Shown here piece by piece: positions 334 to 25,179 of a stretch of 36,282 bases of DNA; positions within the stretch are counted from its first letter, which is position 1; each line of letters opens with the position of its first letter. Origin of the DNA: Chloroflexota bacterium. Lineage in GTDB: Bacteria > Chloroflexota > UBA11872 > UBA12225. The stretch spans positions 1 to 36,282 of the forward strand of contig JACQGX010000404.1 in assembly GCA_016199265.1 (NCBI GenBank), in the 5' to 3' direction. Both the position numbers and the translations under genes were made by a program. The notes beneath the pieces are model-generated. The model did not search any database. It saw only the letters and a list, made by a program, of their open reading frames with translations, and was not told the DNA's origin.

Positions 334-2039
334 ATGCCTAGTGATGGACACGAGGCTTTCGGAAATCCCGGCTTGCCGGCGCGCTGGGCCACCGGCGCCA
401 AGGAAGGAGCCGGCACAGCTTGCGCGGCCGGGTCGCGCGTTTGGTTCACCCTCGCGAATGGGATCGTCACCGAGGTGTACTACCCGCGCGTGGATGTCGC
501 CAACACGCGCGACCTCCAATTCCTCGTCACCGACGGCCGGACGTTCTTCCACGAGGAGCAGCGGGATCTGCGCCACGTGGTCGAGTACCTGGACCGCCAG
601 GCCCTCGCCTACCGGCTGACGAGCGAGGACCCGGAGGGCCGGTACCAGATCACCAAGCACATCTTCACCGACCCACAGGGGGATGCGCTGGTTGTGCGGG
701 CGCACTTCGAGGCCCTCAAGGGCAGCACCACGGACTACCACCTCTACGTGCTGCTCGCACCCCACGTCGGCAACCAGGGCGACCACAACTTCGGGCGCGT
801 CATCGAGGCGGATGGGAAGACGTGGCTGGCGGCGCGGCGGGAGAGCATCGCCCTCGCCCTGAGGGCCTCGGTCCGCTTCGCCCGCGTCTCCTGCGGCTTC
901 GCCGGCGCGTCCGACGGCTGGACCGACCTCCACGCCGACTATGAGATGGATTGGACTTTCGGTTCTGCCTCGGACGGCAACATCGCTCTCACCGCGGAGC
1001 TCGACCTTTCTCAGGGCGCCGCGTTCACGTTGGCGCTGGGTTTCGGGCAGAGCTGGCAGCAGGCCATCGCGGCGGCTCGCGCCACGCTGAGCAGACCCTG
1101 GGAGGCGGTGGAGCAGGAGTATGTCGACCAGTGGCGGGAGTACTGCGCCAGCCTGAAGGACCTGAGCGCGTACGCCACCGACGGCGGCGAGACCTACTGG
1201 GCCAGCGCCATGGTGCTGAAGGCTCACGAGGACAAGACCTACCCCGGGGCCCTTATCGCGTCGCTGTCGATCCCCTGGGGGGAATCGGTAGGGGATAGCA
1301 ACGTCGGCGGGTATCACCTTTGCTAGCCGCGGGACCTGGTGTACGACGCTCTACTGCGGGCAGACACGCCGAATGGGCCGGCCTGGCGCCGGTACAACCA
1401 CGACGGCTACGGCGAGAAGGAGGACGGCGCCCCGTACGACGGCACCGGCGTGGGGCGAGCGTGGCCACTGCTTACCGGTGAACGGGCCCACTACGAGCTG
1501 GCCATGGGGCACGAAGTGGGGCCGTATGTTCGAGCCATGGAGCGCTTCGGCAGCCAAGGCCGCATGCTCCCCGAACAGGTCTGGGACGCCCAGGACATCC
1601 CGGAGCGGCGGCTATGGAGCGGCCGCGGCACGGGGTCGGCCACGCCGCTGGCCTGGGCGCACGCCGAGTACCTCCGGCTGCTGCGCTCGCGGCGCGACGG
1701 CCAGGTGTTCGACCGCATCCCCGACGTGTACGACCGCTACGTGGCACAGCAGGTCCAGTCCAACCTGGTGATCTGGAAGTTCAACCACAAAGTGCGCGCC
1801 ATGCGGGAGGGGCAGCGCCTGCGCGTCGAGGTGGGGGCCCATGTTTCCTTCACTGGACGCGCGACCATTGGACGACGGTGCACGACGACTCCATGGCGGA
1901 GGTGGCGCCCGACACCGGTATCTACGCGATCGAGTTCCCCCCGGCCGCGTTCACGGTTGGCCGGGCCTTGGCGTTCACCTTCTACTGGCCAGCGACCGAC
2001 CGCTGGGAGGGCCGGGATTTTGTGGTCGCCGTTACCTGA
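334..2039 (+). pseudogene. Decayed GH15 glucoamylase / glucodextranase-type gene
   Basis: The first 330 codons match the N-terminal beta-sandwich of bacterial GH15 glucoamylases (for example WFTLANGIVTEVYYPR near residues 36-51) and run into the start of the catalytic domain, GGYHL. Family members read VWPRDLV here; this copy has TGC-TAG before PRDLV, so a stop codon replaces the conserved Trp at 1324-1326. The same frame then continues with YDALLRADTPNGPAWRRYN, which in intact enzymes lies some 200-250 residues further on, so most of the alpha/alpha-barrel core is missing. Near a G-run at about 1830-1838 the frame changes again: the C-terminal sheet (TFYWPATDRWEGRDF) is read in another frame and ends at 2039. 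Three independent lesions make a functional enzyme very unlikely. An intact enzyme would release glucose or isomaltose units from alpha-glucans. Confidence 0.85.
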
Positions 2040-2302: not shown

Positions 2303-2773
2303 CTACCGCGGCTCGATCTTGCTCACCTTGTCCACGCGCGAGGCCTCGATCTCGCGCACGATTGCGCGAGGATCCGTGCGGGAAGGGTCGTAGGTAACGG
2401 TGACCCGCTGCCCGTCCACTTGTACGTTGCTGACGCCAGGCACACGGCCGGCAGAGGCGGCGACCCGCTCCTGTCAGCCGGGTCAGGTGATGGTCGGCAC
2501 GGTGAGCGCCACCCGAGCGCCACCCGAGCGCATGCCGCCAGGCGCGCCGGTCGCGACGTGCTGCTGACCCGCGTCTGGCGCCACCTGTCCCGCGGCCGAA
2601 GGCCCGGCGCTCGAGAAGCGCGCTGTGGCGCTCGTGCCAATCCTGCCGAACGCGCCGACCCCCACGGCCACCACCAAAGCGACGCCGGTGAGCGCGGCCA
2701 GCAGGGCGGTACGATTGCTTCGCCGCGGTTTGGCGCGGCGGCTGATCTGCGTCACGTTCTCTGAGACGTTCAC
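2303..2773 (-). CDS. HMA-domain metal-binding selenoprotein with U-x-x-U motif
   Basis: Read straight through, this frame gives an anchored protein of about 156 residues: a basic N-terminus, one membrane segment (about residues 24-42, LLAALTGVALVVAVGVGAF), a linker, and a C-terminal HMA (MerP/CopZ-like) domain. The domain reads ALTVPTIT-U-P-G-U-QERVAA, then GRVPGVSNVQVDGQRVTVTY and IVREIEAS, the beta-alpha-beta pattern of the family, followed by a TAG stop at 2303-2305. Both Cys of the usual metal-binding T-C-x-x-C are in-frame TGA (2483-2485 and 2474-2476), so selenocysteines 97 and 100 are proposed. The GTG start at 2773 overlaps the CcdA-like stop (GTGA) and has GGGGGA 7 bases upstream; an ATG at 2797 is an alternative. 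It is the last gene of an operon with the CcdA-like and MerT-like genes. Function inferred: soft-metal (mercury or copper) binding outside the membrane. No strong SECIS hairpin is obvious. Confidence 0.82.
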
Positions 2774-3501
2774 ATCGACATCCCCCACAGCGCCCATCGG
2801 GCCGCCTCGGCCAGGAAGTAGAGCGCCGCAAGCAGAAGGAGGACAGCGCTGGCGCGCTCCACCGCCGGCATGTGCCGCGAAACCGCTCTGAGCTGTTTGA
2901 ACGCGCCGGTTGCCCCGCCAATGGCGAGCAGCGGCAGGCCCCGGCCGGCGGCGAAGGCCAGAAAGAGCAGGCCGCCGTACCAGGCGGCACCCGTAAGGGC
3001 CGCGCCGATTGCCACGGGCACCATCAACGGGACGCAGGTGGGGCAGGTCACTAGCCCGTAGGGGAGCCCGAGCGCAAAGGCGCCCAGCCACGAACTGTTC
3101 GCCCCGGCGGGCGCAGCCAGACCGAACAGACCGGACAGACCGGGGAAGGAAAGGGGCAGGACTCCCAGAGCCGCCAGCGCGACGAGCAACGTGAGCAGCC
3201 CGGCCAGCGCGTTCCAGAGAGCCACATTGCCGCCGACGAGTTGCTGGGCCACGGCGCCAGCGGCCCCAAAGAGGGCGCCGACGGCCACATTCACCAGCGA
3301 GATTCCCCCAAGGAACGCCAGCGCGCGACCCCTGGCGGCCGCTCCCGAGCGGGCGCCAGCCCCGACGTAGCCGACAATCACCGGCGTGAGCGCGAAGGTG
3401 GTCGGCGTCAGCGTGGACACGATACCCAGGATAAACGCGAGCGCCACCGCCCACAGAGAGTACTGGGCGAAAACCTCCGTGAGCTGCTGCGGATCGGCCA
3501 T
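2770..3501 (-). CDS. CcdA/DsbD-like membrane thiol-electron transporter
   Basis: The protein has 243 residues and about six hydrophobic segments, matching the CcdA/DsbD transmembrane family that carries reducing equivalents from cytoplasmic thioredoxin to extracytoplasmic partners. Family members normally have one Cys in the first and one in the fourth membrane segment. Here segment 1 reads STLTPTTFALTP with no Cys, while segment 4 has a close pair, VTCPTCVPLM (Cys153, Cys156). That pattern also recalls metal-binding CPxC motifs, so a transport role is possible. The ATG at 3501 has GAGGTAG upstream and lies 7 bases after the MerT-like gene; the 3' end overlaps the HMA selenoprotein start. Inference: it keeps the operon partners reduced or moves their metal. 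Confidence 0.75.
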   Translation of the reverse strand: MADPQQLTEVFAQYSLWAVALAFILGIVSTLTPTTFALTPVIVGYVGAGARSGAAARGRALAFLGGISLVNVAVGALFGAAGAVAQQLVGGNVALWNALAGLLTLLVALAALGVLPLSFPGLSGLFGLAAPAGANSSWLGAFALGLPYGLVTCPTCVPLMVPVAIGAALTGAAWYGGLLFLAFAAGRGLPLLAIGGATGAFKQLRAVSRHMPAVERASAVLLLLAALYFLAEAARWALWGMSM

Positions 3502-3508
3502 GCCCCTA

Positions 3509-4081
3509 CTACCTCGATGCTGCCGGCGCCGCGGCCGCGACGCGTGCCTCCAGCGCCTCGTCCAACAGACGCTCCAGCCGCGCCGCGTCAAGCGCTCCCT
3601 GTGCCCGCAGACGCCCATCGATCACCAGGGCCGGCGTCCGCAGCACACGGTGTCGCTCTGCCACATCGGGCCGCTCGAGCAGATCAATCACCTGCACGTG
3701 GACTCGATCTTCGTACCGCGGCCGAATCGCCTTCCAACTGCGCTCCACCCCCGCGCAACTGGCGCAGCCGGAGGTCTTGAGAATCTGGAGTTGCAGCGGC
3801 TCCACCGCAGGCGCTCCGCGCCCTGGCGCGTGCTGCGGCTCGGCCAGAGCGGGCGGGGCCGCGCTCGCCGGAGCCGCCGGAGCGGCCGCCTGCGCGACGA
3901 ACGTTTGGCGCGACCACAGCCAGAGGCTGCCGGCAAAGAGCAGGCCGAGCGCGACGAAGAGCACGGGGTAAGTCTCAGCGATCAGGCCGCCCAGGGCCGT
4001 CCCGGCCAGGACGGCGCCGAGGATGGGCAGATAACACGGGCACGAGATCGCCGCCACGGCCAGGAGTAGGTGTCGTCGCAT
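3509..4081 (-). CDS. MerT-like membrane domain fused to a thioredoxin-fold domain
   Basis: This 190-residue protein begins with a short membrane domain of two hydrophobic helices (about residues 5-34 and 38-56) whose first helix contains ISCPCYLPILG, resembling the Cys pair in the first helix of MerT-type mercury transporters and in methylamine-utilisation/MauE-like proteins. A flexible Ala/Pro linker follows (63-95), then a glutaredoxin/thioredoxin-fold domain with the pair TSGCASC (Cys106, Cys109), a VIDLLERP strand and RTPALVIDGRL, the cis-Pro loop typical of the fold. It is the first gene of the operon with the CcdA-like and HMA proteins, behind the promoter at 4158-4186. Inference: it passes a soft metal or electrons between the membrane and the HMA partner. 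The MerT assignment rests on motif and length only. Confidence 0.7.
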   Translation of the reverse strand: MRRHLLLAVAAISCPCYLPILGAVLAGTALGGLIAETYPVLFVALGLLFAGSLWLWSRQTFVAQAAAPAAPASAAPPALAEPQHAPGRGAPAVEPLQLQILKTSGCASCAGVERSWKAIRPRYEDRVHVQVIDLLERPDVAERHRVLRTPALVIDGRLRAQGALDAARLERLLDEALEARVAAAAPAASR

Positions 4082-4157
4082 GGTGGGTTCTCCGGAGATC
4101 TTGACCCTGGAGCTTCCAGGCGCCTGCAGCCGACGCCGGTGCCGTTCGTACCAGGAA

Positions 4158-4186
4158 TCTATACGGCTAGCCGTATGTTAGCACAA
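4158..4186 (-). promoter_or_regulatory. Promoter of the MerT-like/CcdA/HMA operon
   Basis: On the minus strand there is a -35-like TTGTGC (4181-4186), a 17-base spacer and a -10-like TATAGA (4158-4163), placing transcription start near 4150, about 70 bases before the ATG at 4081. The spacer and -10 box are covered by a perfect palindrome, so the promoter is probably controlled. Confidence 0.6.
4161..4176. promoter_or_regulatory. 16-bp perfect palindrome, probable operator
   Basis: ATACGGCTAGCCGTAT is a perfect inverted repeat lying between the -35 and -10 boxes and touching the -10. A repressor or MerR/ArsR-type sensor dimer could bind here. It differs from the CTTACG-type sites of the TetR gene nearby, so a second regulator, not encoded in the window, may be involved. 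Confidence 0.6.
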
Positions 4187-4268: not shown

Positions 4269-5288
4269 CTAGCCGGCCACCAGGGTGGCGAGCGCGCCGC
4301 CGGCCACGGCGACGGCCAAGAAGCCGGCCGCGAGGGCGGCGATCACCGGCAGGCGAAAGAATCCCGTGAGCAGGGCCACCTCCGACGCGCTCATCCCCAG
4401 GCCCGTGATCACCAACGCCACGACTGCGCCGATTCCCATGCCCTTGTCCAGGAGCGCCGCGGTGATCGGCAGGAGGATCTCGGCGTTGATGTAGACGGGC
4501 AGGCCGAGCAGGGCCATCAAGGGGATCGCGAAGGGCTGGTCGGGACCGGCGACGGCGACGATCCAGCCGACGGGCATGAACCCCCGGACGAGCGCCCCAA
4601 TCGTCGTGCCGAGCAGGAGGTGCGGCAGCAGGGAGACAAAGGCGCTCCACGACGCGCCCCACGCCTGGCGCACTGCCCTCCAGGCCCCGCGCCGGCCCAG
4701 CGCGGCCGCAGCACCGCGCCCCGCCTCGAGCGCCGGCACTCCCGTCGGGATGGTCCCCGGTGCGGGGCCGCTCTCCCCGTTGCCTTCGAACATGCCGGCG
4801 TGCGGCGTGCGCGGCACATGTGCCACGGGCGCCCGAATCCGGTCCTTCACGTCTCGCTCAAAGCCGAACCGCGCGAACAGGGCGCCAATGCCCATCGACG
4901 CGAGGAAGGTCACCGCGGCGTACAGCACCGTCAGCTTCGGCCCGATCAAGAAGACCAGCACCCCCAGTACAATGCCGTCCAACAGCGGCGAGGAGATGAG
5001 GAACGCCATCGTCGGCCCGAACGGCACGCCGCTCCGCAGCAGCACCGCCAGCACCGGGATGGTCGTCATGGAGCAGAACGGCGTCACGGTGCCGAGCGCG
5101 GCGCCCGCGAGGTAGCTCGTCGAGGCGCGCCGCCGCTGGAACAGCGCGCGAACCCGCGCCTCCGGCAGCCGTACTTGCAGAAGCGCCATCAGGAAAATTA
5201 GTGCCAGGAAGAGCAGCCCCAGCGCCGGGGTCGTGACCAGAAACCAGCGCACGCCCTCCAAGAGATTGCCCGTGAAACTGCCCGTCAT
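4269..5288 (-). CDS. DUF318/YraQ-type permease
   Basis: The 339-residue protein has two blocks of hydrophobic helices separated by a hydrophilic loop (about 145-200). It carries the family repeats FCSMTTIPVLAVLLRSGVPFG with FLISSPLLDG in the first half and PVYINAEILLPITAALLDKG in the second, which identify the DUF318 (UPF0718, YraQ-like) permeases often found beside arsenic, mercury or other metalloid genes. The ATG at 5288 is preceded by GGCGAGA. It has its own strong promoter (5371-5399) divergent from the TetR gene and lies upstream, on the same strand, of the MerT-like operon. Inference: efflux of a metal or organometal, induced through the TetR regulator. Confidence 0.8.
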   Translation of the reverse strand: MTGSFTGNLLEGVRWFLVTTPALGLLFLALIFLMALLQVRLPEARVRALFQRRRASTSYLAGAALGTVTPFCSMTTIPVLAVLLRSGVPFGPTMAFLISSPLLDGIVLGVLVFLIGPKLTVLYAAVTFLASMGIGALFARFGFERDVKDRIRAPVAHVPRTPHAGMFEGNGESGPAPGTIPTGVPALEAGRGAAAALGRRGAWRAVRQAWGASWSAFVSLLPHLLLGTTIGALVRGFMPVGWIVAVAGPDQPFAIPLMALLGLPVYINAEILLPITAALLDKGMGIGAVVALVITGLGMSASEVALLTGFFRLPVIAALAAGFLAVAVAGGALATLVAG

Positions 5289-5346: not shown

Positions 5347-5392
5347 CTTACGTTGTAACCTTACGTCGTAAGTCTAGCGCCTACGTTGTAAG
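5347..5392. promoter_or_regulatory. Three operator-like 13-bp palindromes
   Basis: Three related sites, CTTACGTTGTAAC (5347-5359), CTTACGTCGTAAG (5360-5372) and CCTACGTTGTAAG (5380-5392), share a dyad core T-T/C-TACG-N-N-GTAA. The first two abut and the third begins 20 bases after the second. They cover the permease promoter and the region upstream of the TetR gene, the usual arrangement for a TetR-family repressor controlling itself and a divergent transporter. Confidence 0.7.
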
Positions 5393-6201: not shown

Positions 6202-6468
6202 CGCTCTCGAAAACAGACCGCCTCGAGCCCTCACGGGCTATTCAAGTTGGTGGCCGACGCCCGGACCGATCGCCTGCTGGGCGCGCACGTCCTGGCCGAG
6301 AACGCCGGCGATGTGATCCACGCGGCGACGCTGGCGATCAAGTTTGGCCTCACGGTGCAGGATCTGACGCAGACGTTCGCGCCGTATCTCACCATGGCCG
6401 AGGGGCTCAAGCTGGCCGCTCAAACGTTTGGCAAAGACGTGAGCAAGCTCTCTTGCTGCGCGGCGTAG
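6202..6468 (+). pseudogene. merA: Remnant of mercuric reductase (MerA) C-terminus
   Basis: From 6241 the frame reads [36 protein letters not shown], then [17 protein letters not shown] and ends VSKLSCCAA. This is the C-terminal dimerisation region of mercuric reductase, including the vicinal Cys pair that delivers Hg(II) to the active site. A trace of the preceding strand (PPRALT) is visible in another frame at about 6213-6233. The FAD and NAD domains are absent: the TetR gene ends at 6157. So it is the last 75 or so codons of a roughly 550-codon gene, cut off and frameshifted at its 5' side. It converges with egtD. It shows that a true mer determinant once lay here. Confidence 0.85.
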
Positions 6469-10872: not shown

Positions 10873-11514
10873 GTGACTCGAAGGACACTTGCCCTCCCGT
10901 TGGTCTTCGCCGTCCTGCTGCTGTCGTTTGCCTTCGTCGCCGGTGCCGGCGCGCAGTATGCCGAGCCGGCAGATCCCATCGAGTCCATCTATGAGGCCGC
11001 CGAGCCCGGCACCGAATTCGGCGCGGCGGCGGAGCAGGCCGCCGATAGTGATAGTGAACCCGGCGCCGACACCGGCCCCGCCGCCGAGCCGGCACAGACG
11101 CTTGACCCTCTGGTCGAGATCGTCGAGCCAGATCTAACCAACCCGTTCACGTGGGCGTTTCGACCCCTGACGATCACCGTTCCCGCGGGTACGCCGGTCA
11201 CGTGGTTCAACCGGGGAGTGATTGGCCACACGGTCACGGCGCAGGATCAGAGTTGGGACTCCGATATCCTCCTTGGCGGCGGAGCGTTCCAACGGGCGTT
11301 CGACATCCCCGGCGAGGTGGCCTACTTCTGCCGCATCCACCCATGGGCAACGGGGACGGTGGTCGTGGTGGCCGCGGATGGTGGCGCCGGCCCCGCGCCG
11401 GAACCAGCGCCCATGGGTGAGGCGGCAACGGCCGAAGAGGCAGCGCCCGTCGAAGAAGCGTCCTCGCCGACCGGAGAAGTTCCGGTTGAAGCAGAGATGT
11501 CTGCCGAAGGCTGA
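10873..11514 (+). CDS. Secreted plastocyanin-like cupredoxin with acidic repeats
   Basis: The 213-residue protein has a signal peptide (residues 1-26, LALPLVFAVLLLSFAFVAGA, cleaved near AGAQ), an acidic Ala/Glu/Pro segment (30-75), and a cupredoxin domain (about 85-168): FRPLTITVPAGTPVTWFNRG, IGHTVTAQD with the first His ligand, and VAYFCRIHPWATGTVVV with the Cys-x-x-His pattern of type 1 copper sites. A second acidic, Ala/Glu-rich tail closes the protein. The GTG at 10873 has GGAGGA 6 bases upstream. It ends at a shared terminator with the convergent cupredoxin lipoprotein. Probable role: extracytoplasmic electron carrier or copper binding. Confidence 0.85.
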   Translation: MTRRTLALPLVFAVLLLSFAFVAGAGAQYAEPADPIESIYEAAEPGTEFGAAAEQAADSDSEPGADTGPAAEPAQTLDPLVEIVEPDLTNPFTWAFRPLTITVPAGTPVTWFNRGVIGHTVTAQDQSWDSDILLGGGAFQRAFDIPGEVAYFCRIHPWATGTVVVVAADGGAGPAPEPAPMGEAATAEEAAPVEEASSPTGEVPVEAEMSAEG

Positions 11515-11665: not shown

Positions 11666-12112
11666 CTACTCGACGATAATCGTTCCCTTCATGCCGGCTT
11701 GCTCGTGGCCCGGCTGCGCGCAGATGAACTCGTACCGGCCGGGCTTGGCGGCCACGGAAAATGCACCGCTCGCCGTCTGCCCGGCCGCCACTTCGATCTT
11801 TGCGTCGGTCGCTTGGCCGCGCGTCACAAAGTCATGGGCCAGCACGCCGGGGTTGCGCAACTGCACCGTGATCCGTTCGCCGGCTTTCACCCGGATTTCC
11901 GCCGGCGAGAACCGGAACGAGTCGTTGGTCACAAGATCGATCGTCCTCGTCTTGGCCGCGCCGCCGCCGCACCCCGCCAGCAAAGCGAGGGCGGCGAGCG
12001 CCGCCGTGGCCACGAGCACTCTACTGCGCCACCTCGCGCTCGGGTCAGTCTGCACCCCGGCGGCCTGATCGGCCCGCTTGTCCCGCACCCGTCTTGCCGC
12101 CTCGTCGTTCAT
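11666..12112 (-). CDS. Cupredoxin-domain lipoprotein
   Basis: Starting at the ATG at 12112 the protein has 148 residues: a polar N-terminus, a hydrophobic segment with lipobox (LVATAALAALALLAGCGGG; lipid-modified Cys near residue 48), and a cupredoxin domain with the ligands LAHDFVTRG (His) and FICAQPGHEQAGMKGTIIVE (Cys, His, Met), a full type 1 copper set. A longer frame to 12265 is open but is arginine-rich and lacks a better start. It resembles nitrous-oxide-reductase or cytochrome-oxidase-type cupredoxins in size and may shuttle electrons at the outer face of the membrane. It diverges from the Sec redoxin. Confidence 0.82.
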   Translation of the reverse strand: MNDEAARRVRDKRADQAAGVQTDPSARWRSRVLVATAALAALALLAGCGGGAAKTRTIDLVTNDSFRFSPAEIRVKAGERITVQLRNPGVLAHDFVTRGQATDAKIEVAAGQTASGAFSVAAKPGRYEFICAQPGHEQAGMKGTIIVE

Positions 12113-12285
12113 GGTTCGTCGTCTCCACCTGGGTTTTCGTTTGTCGAGCGTCACCGCCCGCAGCCGAGCTGCGGACGGTGACCGCAACGTGCATAGCATC
12201 GCGCACGGTTCGTCCTCCGTCAGTAGCGCCGCATACAGTTCCTCTTGGGCCACAGCAGTTACCATTGCGACGAAGGAGGAATCAG

Positions 12286-24398: not shown

Positions 24399-25179
24399 GG
24401 TGCGGGCTTCGAGGATGTGGTGGCGACGCGATGCACGCGAACAACTGCTCCGGATCGGGGTTCCCCCGTGCGATCACGGCGCCGTCGAGCAAGTACGTGG
24501 GCACCGCCACCACGCTCTCCGGCAGTGCCGGTGAGGTACCCGCGTCTGCGGCGGCCTCGATGTCGATCGTGCGCACGTCGAGACCCGGAAACCGTTGCGC
24601 GGCGGCAGCGGCCAGCCGGCGCGCCTCGGCGCAGCCTAGGCAGTGCGAGGCGACGTACACCTCCAGGCGCCGCGCCGCCCGGGCACCTGCCGGCAGCGCG
24701 TGCGCCGCCAGCGCGTGGCACCCCCACAGGGTGGCGCCCGTGACTACGCCGTACGCGAGGTAGCAGGCCAGCCCGGCCACGCTTGTTTCGACATCACCGC
24801 GCCCCACTTCCCCAACCAGGGCGCAGATCTCCGGCCGAAAGGGCGCCAGCACAAACGCCTCCAGCGCCCACCACACCATCCCGAACGCGGCTCCCAGCAC
24901 GGCAACACGCAGGGCGCCGGCCAGACGGACACCGACCAGGTGTCCGAACGCCGCCCCGAGCAGGACGCCCAGCGCCAGACGTACGAGCCAGCGCGGCCCC
25001 GCCGCGGCGAGCAGCACGCCGCCGTCTTGAACCGCAGTGACCGTTAGCGTGGTAGACAGGAGGACGAACGCCACGCCACCGGGGAGGCCGGCGAGCGCGC
25101 CGGCGATTGCCGGCGAGCGCCTGCACCAGGTGCGCAACCGGCCGCCCAGCGGACCGGTGACACCCGCACGCGCTACCAT
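24391..25179 (-). CDS. Membrane protein with C-terminal thioredoxin-fold domain
   Basis: The 262-residue protein has about four hydrophobic segments (28-52, 64-86, 90-112, 134-160) and then a thioredoxin-like domain from about 171: LEVYVASHCLGCAEARRLAA with the pair Cys180-x-x-Cys183, FPGLDVRTIDIEA, VVAVPTYLLDGAVIARGNPD with the cis-Pro loop. A TM-plus-CxxC thioredoxin layout like the MerT-like protein at 3509, but the membrane part is unrelated. The start at 25179 lacks a strong ribosome binding site. Role inferred: thiol exchange at the membrane. Confidence 0.65.
   Translation of the reverse strand: MVARAGVTGPLGGRLRTWCRRSPAIAGALAGLPGGVAFVLLSTTLTVTAVQDGGVLLAAAGPRWLVRLALGVLLGAAFGHLVGVRLAGALRVAVLGAAFGMVWWALEAFVLAPFRPEICALVGEVGRGDVETSVAGLACYLAYGVVTGATLWGCHALAAHALPAGARAARRLEVYVASHCLGCAEARRLAAAAAQRFPGLDVRTIDIEAAADAGTSPALPESVVAVPTYLLDGAVIARGNPDPEQLFACIASPPHPRSPHRA

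Follow-up and report, generated by a model that had tools for sequence, protein, structure and literature searches.

A divergent HMA-domain gene with two in-frame TGA codons, encoding a probable selenoprotein, in a mercury-type gene setting of a Chloroflexota bacterium

We analyzed a stretch of 36,282 nucleotides, hereafter the window, from the genome of a Chloroflexota bacterium (assembly GCA_016199265.1, contig JACQGX010000404.1). The same strand carries a gene for a fusion of a MerE-like protein and a thioredoxin-like domain, a CcdA-like gene and a gene for a protein with a heavy-metal-associated (HMA) domain (Table 1). The minus-strand frame of the HMA gene, 2303-2797(-), reads VPTITUPGUQERV across two TGA codons (UGA1 and UGA2), ends at a TAG and holds no other stop along its whole length. 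We consider the GTG at 2773 to be its most likely start, because this codon gives a 4-base overlap with the TGA stop of the upstream CcdA-like gene; an ATG at 2797 is possible. The overlap also suggests that the HMA gene is probably translationally coupled to the CcdA-like gene.

The initial annotation of this DNA had proposed an HMA frame running through both TGA codons to the TAG, and the domain analysis bore this out. With U read as C, the protein matched PF00403 at 43.2 bits (cut-off 24.8), and an AlphaFold2 model of the domain, built from a three-sequence input (mean pLDDT 80.9), had the complete order of elements, strand-helix-strand-strand-helix-strand. Among the 50 PDB matches listed, MerP (1osd_A) came first by query TM-score (0.77 at 1.2 A) and third by E-value, after two copper-type domains. 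A hydrophobic segment, recognized by eye behind a basic stretch, is likely a membrane anchor, and the HMA protein is probably extracytoplasmic.

Table 1 Features of the window discussed in the text
Feature	Position	Strand	Basis or remark
Gene of the HMA protein, two TGA codons in frame	2303..2773	-	Likely GTG start at 2773, TAG stop
HMA domain, residues 96-152	2342..2512	-	PF00403, AlphaFold2 model and match to MerP 1osd_A
Candidate SECIS hairpin for UGA1	2446..2479	-	Apical loop GUCG, 18 nt after UGA1; weak
UGA2, second HMA cysteine, residue 108	2474..2476	-	TGA in the window sequence only; the seven others inspected have Cys
UGA1, first HMA cysteine, residue 105	2483..2485	-	TGA at the equivalent place in four other proteins
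Hydrophobic segment following a basic stretch	2648..2707	-	By eye; likely membrane anchor
CcdA/DsbD-like membrane protein	2770..3501	-	PF02683, 55.5 bits; two cysteines, TCPTC
Fusion of a MerE-like N-terminal part with a thioredoxin-like domain (GCASC)	3509..4081	-	PF05052, 36.3 bits; PF13192, 37.1 bits
Perfect 16-bp palindrome ahead of the MerE-thioredoxin gene	4161..4176	.	Sequence; possible operator
ArsP_1 (formerly DUF318) permease	4269..5288	-	PF03773, 140.7 bits
merA C-terminal remnant, model positions 393-464 of 465	6247..6468	+	TIGR02053, 109.1 bits (cut-off 454.45)

The CcdA-like protein has an unusual complement of cysteines. In thiol relays of the CcdA/DsbD type, two transmembrane segments typically carry a cysteine each. 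Such a split pair is absent both from the window protein and from its counterpart in genome G162 (L118:3091-3777(-)), which is identical to it in 174 of 236 alignment columns; each has only two cysteines, both within TCPTC. The CcdA-like protein may carry metal rather than electrons. The MerE-thioredoxin protein, whose gene is preceded by the palindrome, also matched NF010310 at 37.1 bits, below the cut-off of 80. Further upstream, the ArsP-type permease is paired with a divergent TetR-type regulator, and its membership of the same system is uncertain. Between these two genes we observed three near-identical 12-bp copies, CYTACGTYGTAA (5347-5391), which overlap a promoter-like site and found no match in 100 shuffles. 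Downstream of the TetR-type gene only the end of merA is left, the rest of the gene being missing.

These results change part of the description given by the initial annotation. The neighbour that it had called MerT-like resembles MerE instead and has a thioredoxin-like domain fused to it. Its CcdA-like label holds for the family match, though not for the cysteines. The link that it had drawn to Sao-named gene sets was not upheld for the HMA gene: the Sao families are separate NCBIfam models, and only the ArsP-type permease weakly fits one of them (SaoE, 47.8 bits against a cut-off of 325). Elsewhere in the window, the gene at 334-2039(+), which we take to be glucoamylase (GH15)-like, is broken by a TAG at 1324-1326 and by a frameshift near 1841-1860. 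Two open frames, 10873-11514(+) and 11666-12265(-), look cupredoxin-like by eye, and that stretch may hold further copper-related genes.

Homologues were sought in three rounds. The window protein was compared with 151 genomes, 58 of which gave a match, weak hits included. A five-row profile was then run against 400 genomes of the phylum, where at least 209 matched at 1e-8, mostly with ordinary HMA domains, and a seven-row profile against 399 genomes around G162, which largely overlap the previous set and of which 35 matched at 1e-14. Among the matches listed for the five-row profile, the proteins of G162 (89.5) and G278 (74.8), both outside the profile, stood above the next score of 60.0. The seven-row profile gave four members at 104-118 and the next match at 62, a gap that is partly built in, the members being in the profile, and it found no further TGA-bearing members in the 399 genomes. 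In plasmid records, tblastn with the window protein matched only two Haladaptatus P-type ATPases and blastn of 2303-4100 matched nothing; ten pattern matches in viral contigs included no relatives.

We inspected ten loci with stops or TGA codons inside the match (L001, L002, L030, L031, L035, L040, L042, L044, L045 and L015). In six of them (L035, L040, L042, L044, L045 and L015) the stop within the match falls outside the metal motif. Eight proteins were inspected at the metal motif itself, and five of these carry TGA at the first HMA cysteine: the window protein, a second protein of the same genome on contig C93, and those of G162 (TITUPGC), G148 (TVTUVSC) and G150 (LLUPAC), three genomes from other families than the window genome. 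The remaining three, two proteins at locus L029 and one in G278, have Cys at this position as well as opposite UGA2 of the window. The G162 protein is the closest relative, at 74% identity to the window protein; in a tree of 13 HMA domains, which had no starred fork, it was likewise the nearest, and the order of the others did not resolve. The C93 gene (about 24465-24925(+)) has its TGA at 24737-24739, in GMTUTSC, and its product is 33% identical to the window protein over residues 30-143.

Downstream of UGA2, comparison with the G162 relative gave a dN of 0.19 and a dS of 0.73, values that point to purifying selection acting past both TGA codons. Because homology continues in frame over both TGA codons, because this selection is seen downstream of them and because the first cysteine is a TGA in four more proteins, the read-through frame is real, beyond chance. 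We also considered that the host might read TGA as Trp, and rejected this: its CcdA-like and TetR genes stop at TGA, and the relatives carry Cys, not Trp, at both sites. The initial annotation had placed selenocysteine on both metal ligands and had looked to homologues with U or Cys across the two TGA codons. Such homologues exist, with U or Cys at position 1, and the claim for the first ligand stands. Judged from these alignments, decoding of UGA1 as selenocysteine is well supported and very probable.

Part of the machinery for selenocysteine is present in the genome. The assembly (5.59 Mb in 430 contigs, 77% complete, 5% contaminated) holds a tRNA-Sec with anticodon UCA (73.9 bits, cut-off 47) and selD (364.9 bits, cut-off 125). 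The selD gene (contig C145, 5862-6803(+)) has an in-frame TGA in SSCAGUASK, and SelD itself looks like a selenoprotein. In this assembly, neither selA nor selB was found over cut-off. The best selB candidate of the genome, on C162, reads to us as initiation factor 2, and a contig-end piece on C141 as the start of EF-Tu. Among the selB-search matches, EF-Tu of this assembly appears solely as that contig-end start, which illustrates that a gene of this type can be lost in assembly gaps. We found selB over cut-off in at least 48 of the 61 genomes searched (the own genome being a miss, and weak hits being part of the list) and in at least seven of eight genomes of the same family. In three neighbourhoods viewed, selB adjoins topA in G002 and G004 and does so not in G009. 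Thus, the absence of selA, selB, selC and selD, which had been named as evidence against selenocysteine, was found for selA and selB alone, in an incomplete assembly. Among the relatives, tRNA-Sec is over cut-off in G150 and G162 and also in G278 and the genome of L029, the two with the Cys form. G148, which has the U form and is 86% complete, scored 43.9, under the cut-off of 47.

We next compared the RNA after each UGA with a bacterial SECIS model, whose constraints were taken from PMC13188914. The candidate hairpin at UGA1 satisfies the published model and folds at -10.2 kcal/mol. No fitting hairpin was found for UGA2 or for the HMA genes of G162 and G148. Hairpins fitting the model also occur in G150, in the C93 gene, in the selD gene of the window genome and in a MerT/MerC-like gene of G148 (loop GGUCU, 27 nt downstream of its TGA). 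The model discriminates weakly, as 385 of 1567 in-frame positions in six window genes pass it, 200 of them at -10 or lower. The region suggested by the initial annotation for a SECIS element yields, in sum, a weak fit at UGA1 and a misfit at UGA2.

Folding was also compared with 3000 synonymous shuffles. The 42 nt from UGA1 fold more strongly than 99.2% of them (z -2.6) and the 48 nt more strongly than 97.3%, and lengths of 36 and 54 nt are unremarkable, so that the surplus at UGA1 is clear at one length of the four; a folding surplus over synonymous shuffles was seen neither at UGA2 nor in G162. Identical codons at conserved residues make up 11 of 15 just past UGA2 against 14 of 25 further downstream, which is suggestive only. 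A G(A/G)UC sequence at +17 after the first UGA, shared by the window, G162, C93 and G150, was considered as a SECIS loop and rejected, since its bases belong to the codons of conserved residues, (Arg or Ala)-(Val or Ile), and an L029 Cys homologue has it too; protein-coding constraint explains it. A search of the window with Rfam produced nothing that reached the gathering score.

For the second metal ligand, the claim of selenocysteine is upheld in part only, as one of the eight proteins inspected, that of the window, has TGA there and UGA2 does not fit the SECIS model. One explanation is a UxxC protein in which UGA1 encodes selenocysteine, as in the relatives, with UGA2 arising from an error in sequencing or assembly or from a nonsense mutation that recently struck a decaying allele. 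This would agree with the Cys found in all seven other proteins, with the lack of both a model fit and a folding surplus at UGA2, and with decay close by, in the merA remnant and the gene at 334-2039. The frame is otherwise undamaged, however, and 26 other single changes in it could have created a stop, only three of them a TGA; a random mutation striking precisely this cysteine codon is unlikely, yet possible. Moreover, among HMA-type metal-binding proteins UxxU is already an established prediction (NF041115; table of PMC13188914). We regard the UxxC explanation as rather unlikely and consider that UGA2 is probably also selenocysteine, giving a predicted UxxU site; this grading is a judgement and was not computed.

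Proteins of this kind have precedents in print. Two-selenocysteine metal-binding and MerP-type selenoproteins are entered in tables of PMC13188914 and PMC9312934 and in a row of the selenoprotein table of PMC2398784, 'Mercuric transport protein MerP'. The table of PMC13188914 includes NF041115 (UxxU_metal_bind), a 'putative mercuric reductase' family with UxxU and two selenocysteines. The window protein resembles it as a small metal-binding domain with two selenocysteines at the CxxC positions (UPGU in frame, if UGA2 is selenocysteine). It differs in its score of 28.4 bits (domain 29.4, cut-off 95), in its N-terminal hydrophobic segment and linker, and in having UxxC or CxxC relatives. The same table holds a putative mercuric transport selenoprotein of PF02411 with C/SxxU. 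G148 offers a parallel, as its MerT/MerC-like gene carries a TGA and adjoins the HMA gene; PF02411 is, however, a membrane carrier rather than an HMA protein, and the G148 protein stays under both Pfam cut-offs and has the motif CU.

Two further models were compared by score. MerT_CopZ_Se (NF045683), which is MerT/CopZ fusion-like, shares with the window protein an HMA-type domain with selenocysteine and a metal transport setting, yet the window protein reaches only 15.3 bits, in the HMA part alone, against a cut-off of 375, and has no fused transporter. MerP (TIGR02052) shares the HMA domain and the mer setting and ranks first among the NCBIfam models for the window protein, although the score is 33.4 bits (domain 34.9) against a cut-off of 92.55. 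MerP is free in the periplasm, whereas the window protein appears, by eye, to be membrane-anchored, and its motif is TITUPGU in place of the GMTCxxC that is usual in MerP. All seven aligned members, a set without the C93 protein, match the MerP model below its cut-off. With its scores far under the cut-offs of NF041115, TIGR02052 and NF045683, we left the window protein outside all three; it is apparently a divergent, membrane-anchored branch far below the known family cut-offs, and it is predicted to work like a MerP. In the open-licence literature, a scope outside which most subscription papers fall, our searches turned up no publication about HMA selenoproteins belonging to this group.

The neighbourhoods of the relatives bear on the metal. 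merA or a part of it is present in five of six loci: the window, G162, G148, G278 and L029. In G162, a one-strand cluster contains the merA end (the C-terminal part, located where the contig ends; TIGR02053, 238.7 bits, positions 291-464), arsR, the CcdA-like gene, the HMA gene, merE, one gene of the TlpA/AhpC-TSA type and one membrane gene that matched no Pfam family. G148 has the HMA gene, the MerT/MerC-like gene and MerA (579.9 bits, cut-off 454.45), and G278 has MerA (545.1 bits), the HMA gene and a MerT-like gene (21 bits, under cut-off). At L029, two HMA genes lie about 2.4 kb from a MerA with its own HMA domain (569.4 bits) on the opposite strand. In G150, MerA was not found within 16 kb, and a nearby reductase best fits lipoamide dehydrogenase. 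The MerT/MerC-like protein of G148 (L030:352-663(+)), encoded between the HMA gene and merA, has its TGA in ICU and scores 20-21 bits.

The soft-metal setting proposed by the initial annotation can accordingly be narrowed to a mercury setting, given the MerE-like neighbours and the merA genes or pieces. That the selenocysteine-containing HMA protein serves a soft metal other than mercury, namely copper or arsenic-type compounds, appears quite unlikely, although several observations agree with it. The fold and the nearest solved relatives by sequence are those of copper-ATPase domains and chaperones; the C93 HMA selenoprotein gene (L060 10465-10930) lies downstream of a heavy-metal P-type ATPase (TIGR01525, 548 bits); and the window has a permease of the ArsP type and a CcdA-like protein that weakly matches ArsG (32.3 bits, cut-off 200). 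Against these stand the MerE-like neighbours in both the window and G162, the presence of MerA or a piece of it at every locus except G150, and MerP as the top model. Finally, a plain pseudogene or read errors at both TGA codons, with no selenocysteine at all, would be in line with the damage elsewhere in the window and the unfound selA and selB, but is very improbable: four further proteins, one of them encoded in the same genome, carry a TGA at this first cysteine, the genome has a tRNA-Sec and a TGA-bearing selD, and purifying selection acts beyond the TGA codons.

On balance, we favour reading the window protein as a membrane-anchored, probably extracytoplasmic, MerP-like HMA selenoprotein with a UxxU soft-metal site in a mercury setting. 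In our model, its selenolates, on the outer side of the membrane, would capture Hg(II) or organomercury, and selenium should make the hold on mercury unusually strong. Ligand exchange would then move the metal on to the MerE-like and CcdA-like carriers, a direction of transport that we infer from the gene content, and the thioredoxin domain would keep the selenolate site reduced. Where relatives retain an intact merA, reduction of the metal in the cytoplasm would follow.

More tentatively, these genes may represent a selenium-based mercury branch, probably of Chloroflexota, in which an anchored UxxU or UxxC HMA scavenger would pass the metal to a CcdA-like TCPTC carrier and a MerE-thioredoxin fusion, a route distinct from MerP/MerT, with two UGA codons decoded and a hairpin fitting the SECIS model at the first only. 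Ordinary gene calling stops at the first TGA, and members of the branch are easily missed. Two UGA codons nine bases apart, the second without an evident SECIS, would offer a test case for SelB-dependent decoding of clustered UGA codons. The occurrence of CxxC, UxxC and UxxU in one small group would provide a natural series for testing the effect of selenolates on the capture and release of mercury.
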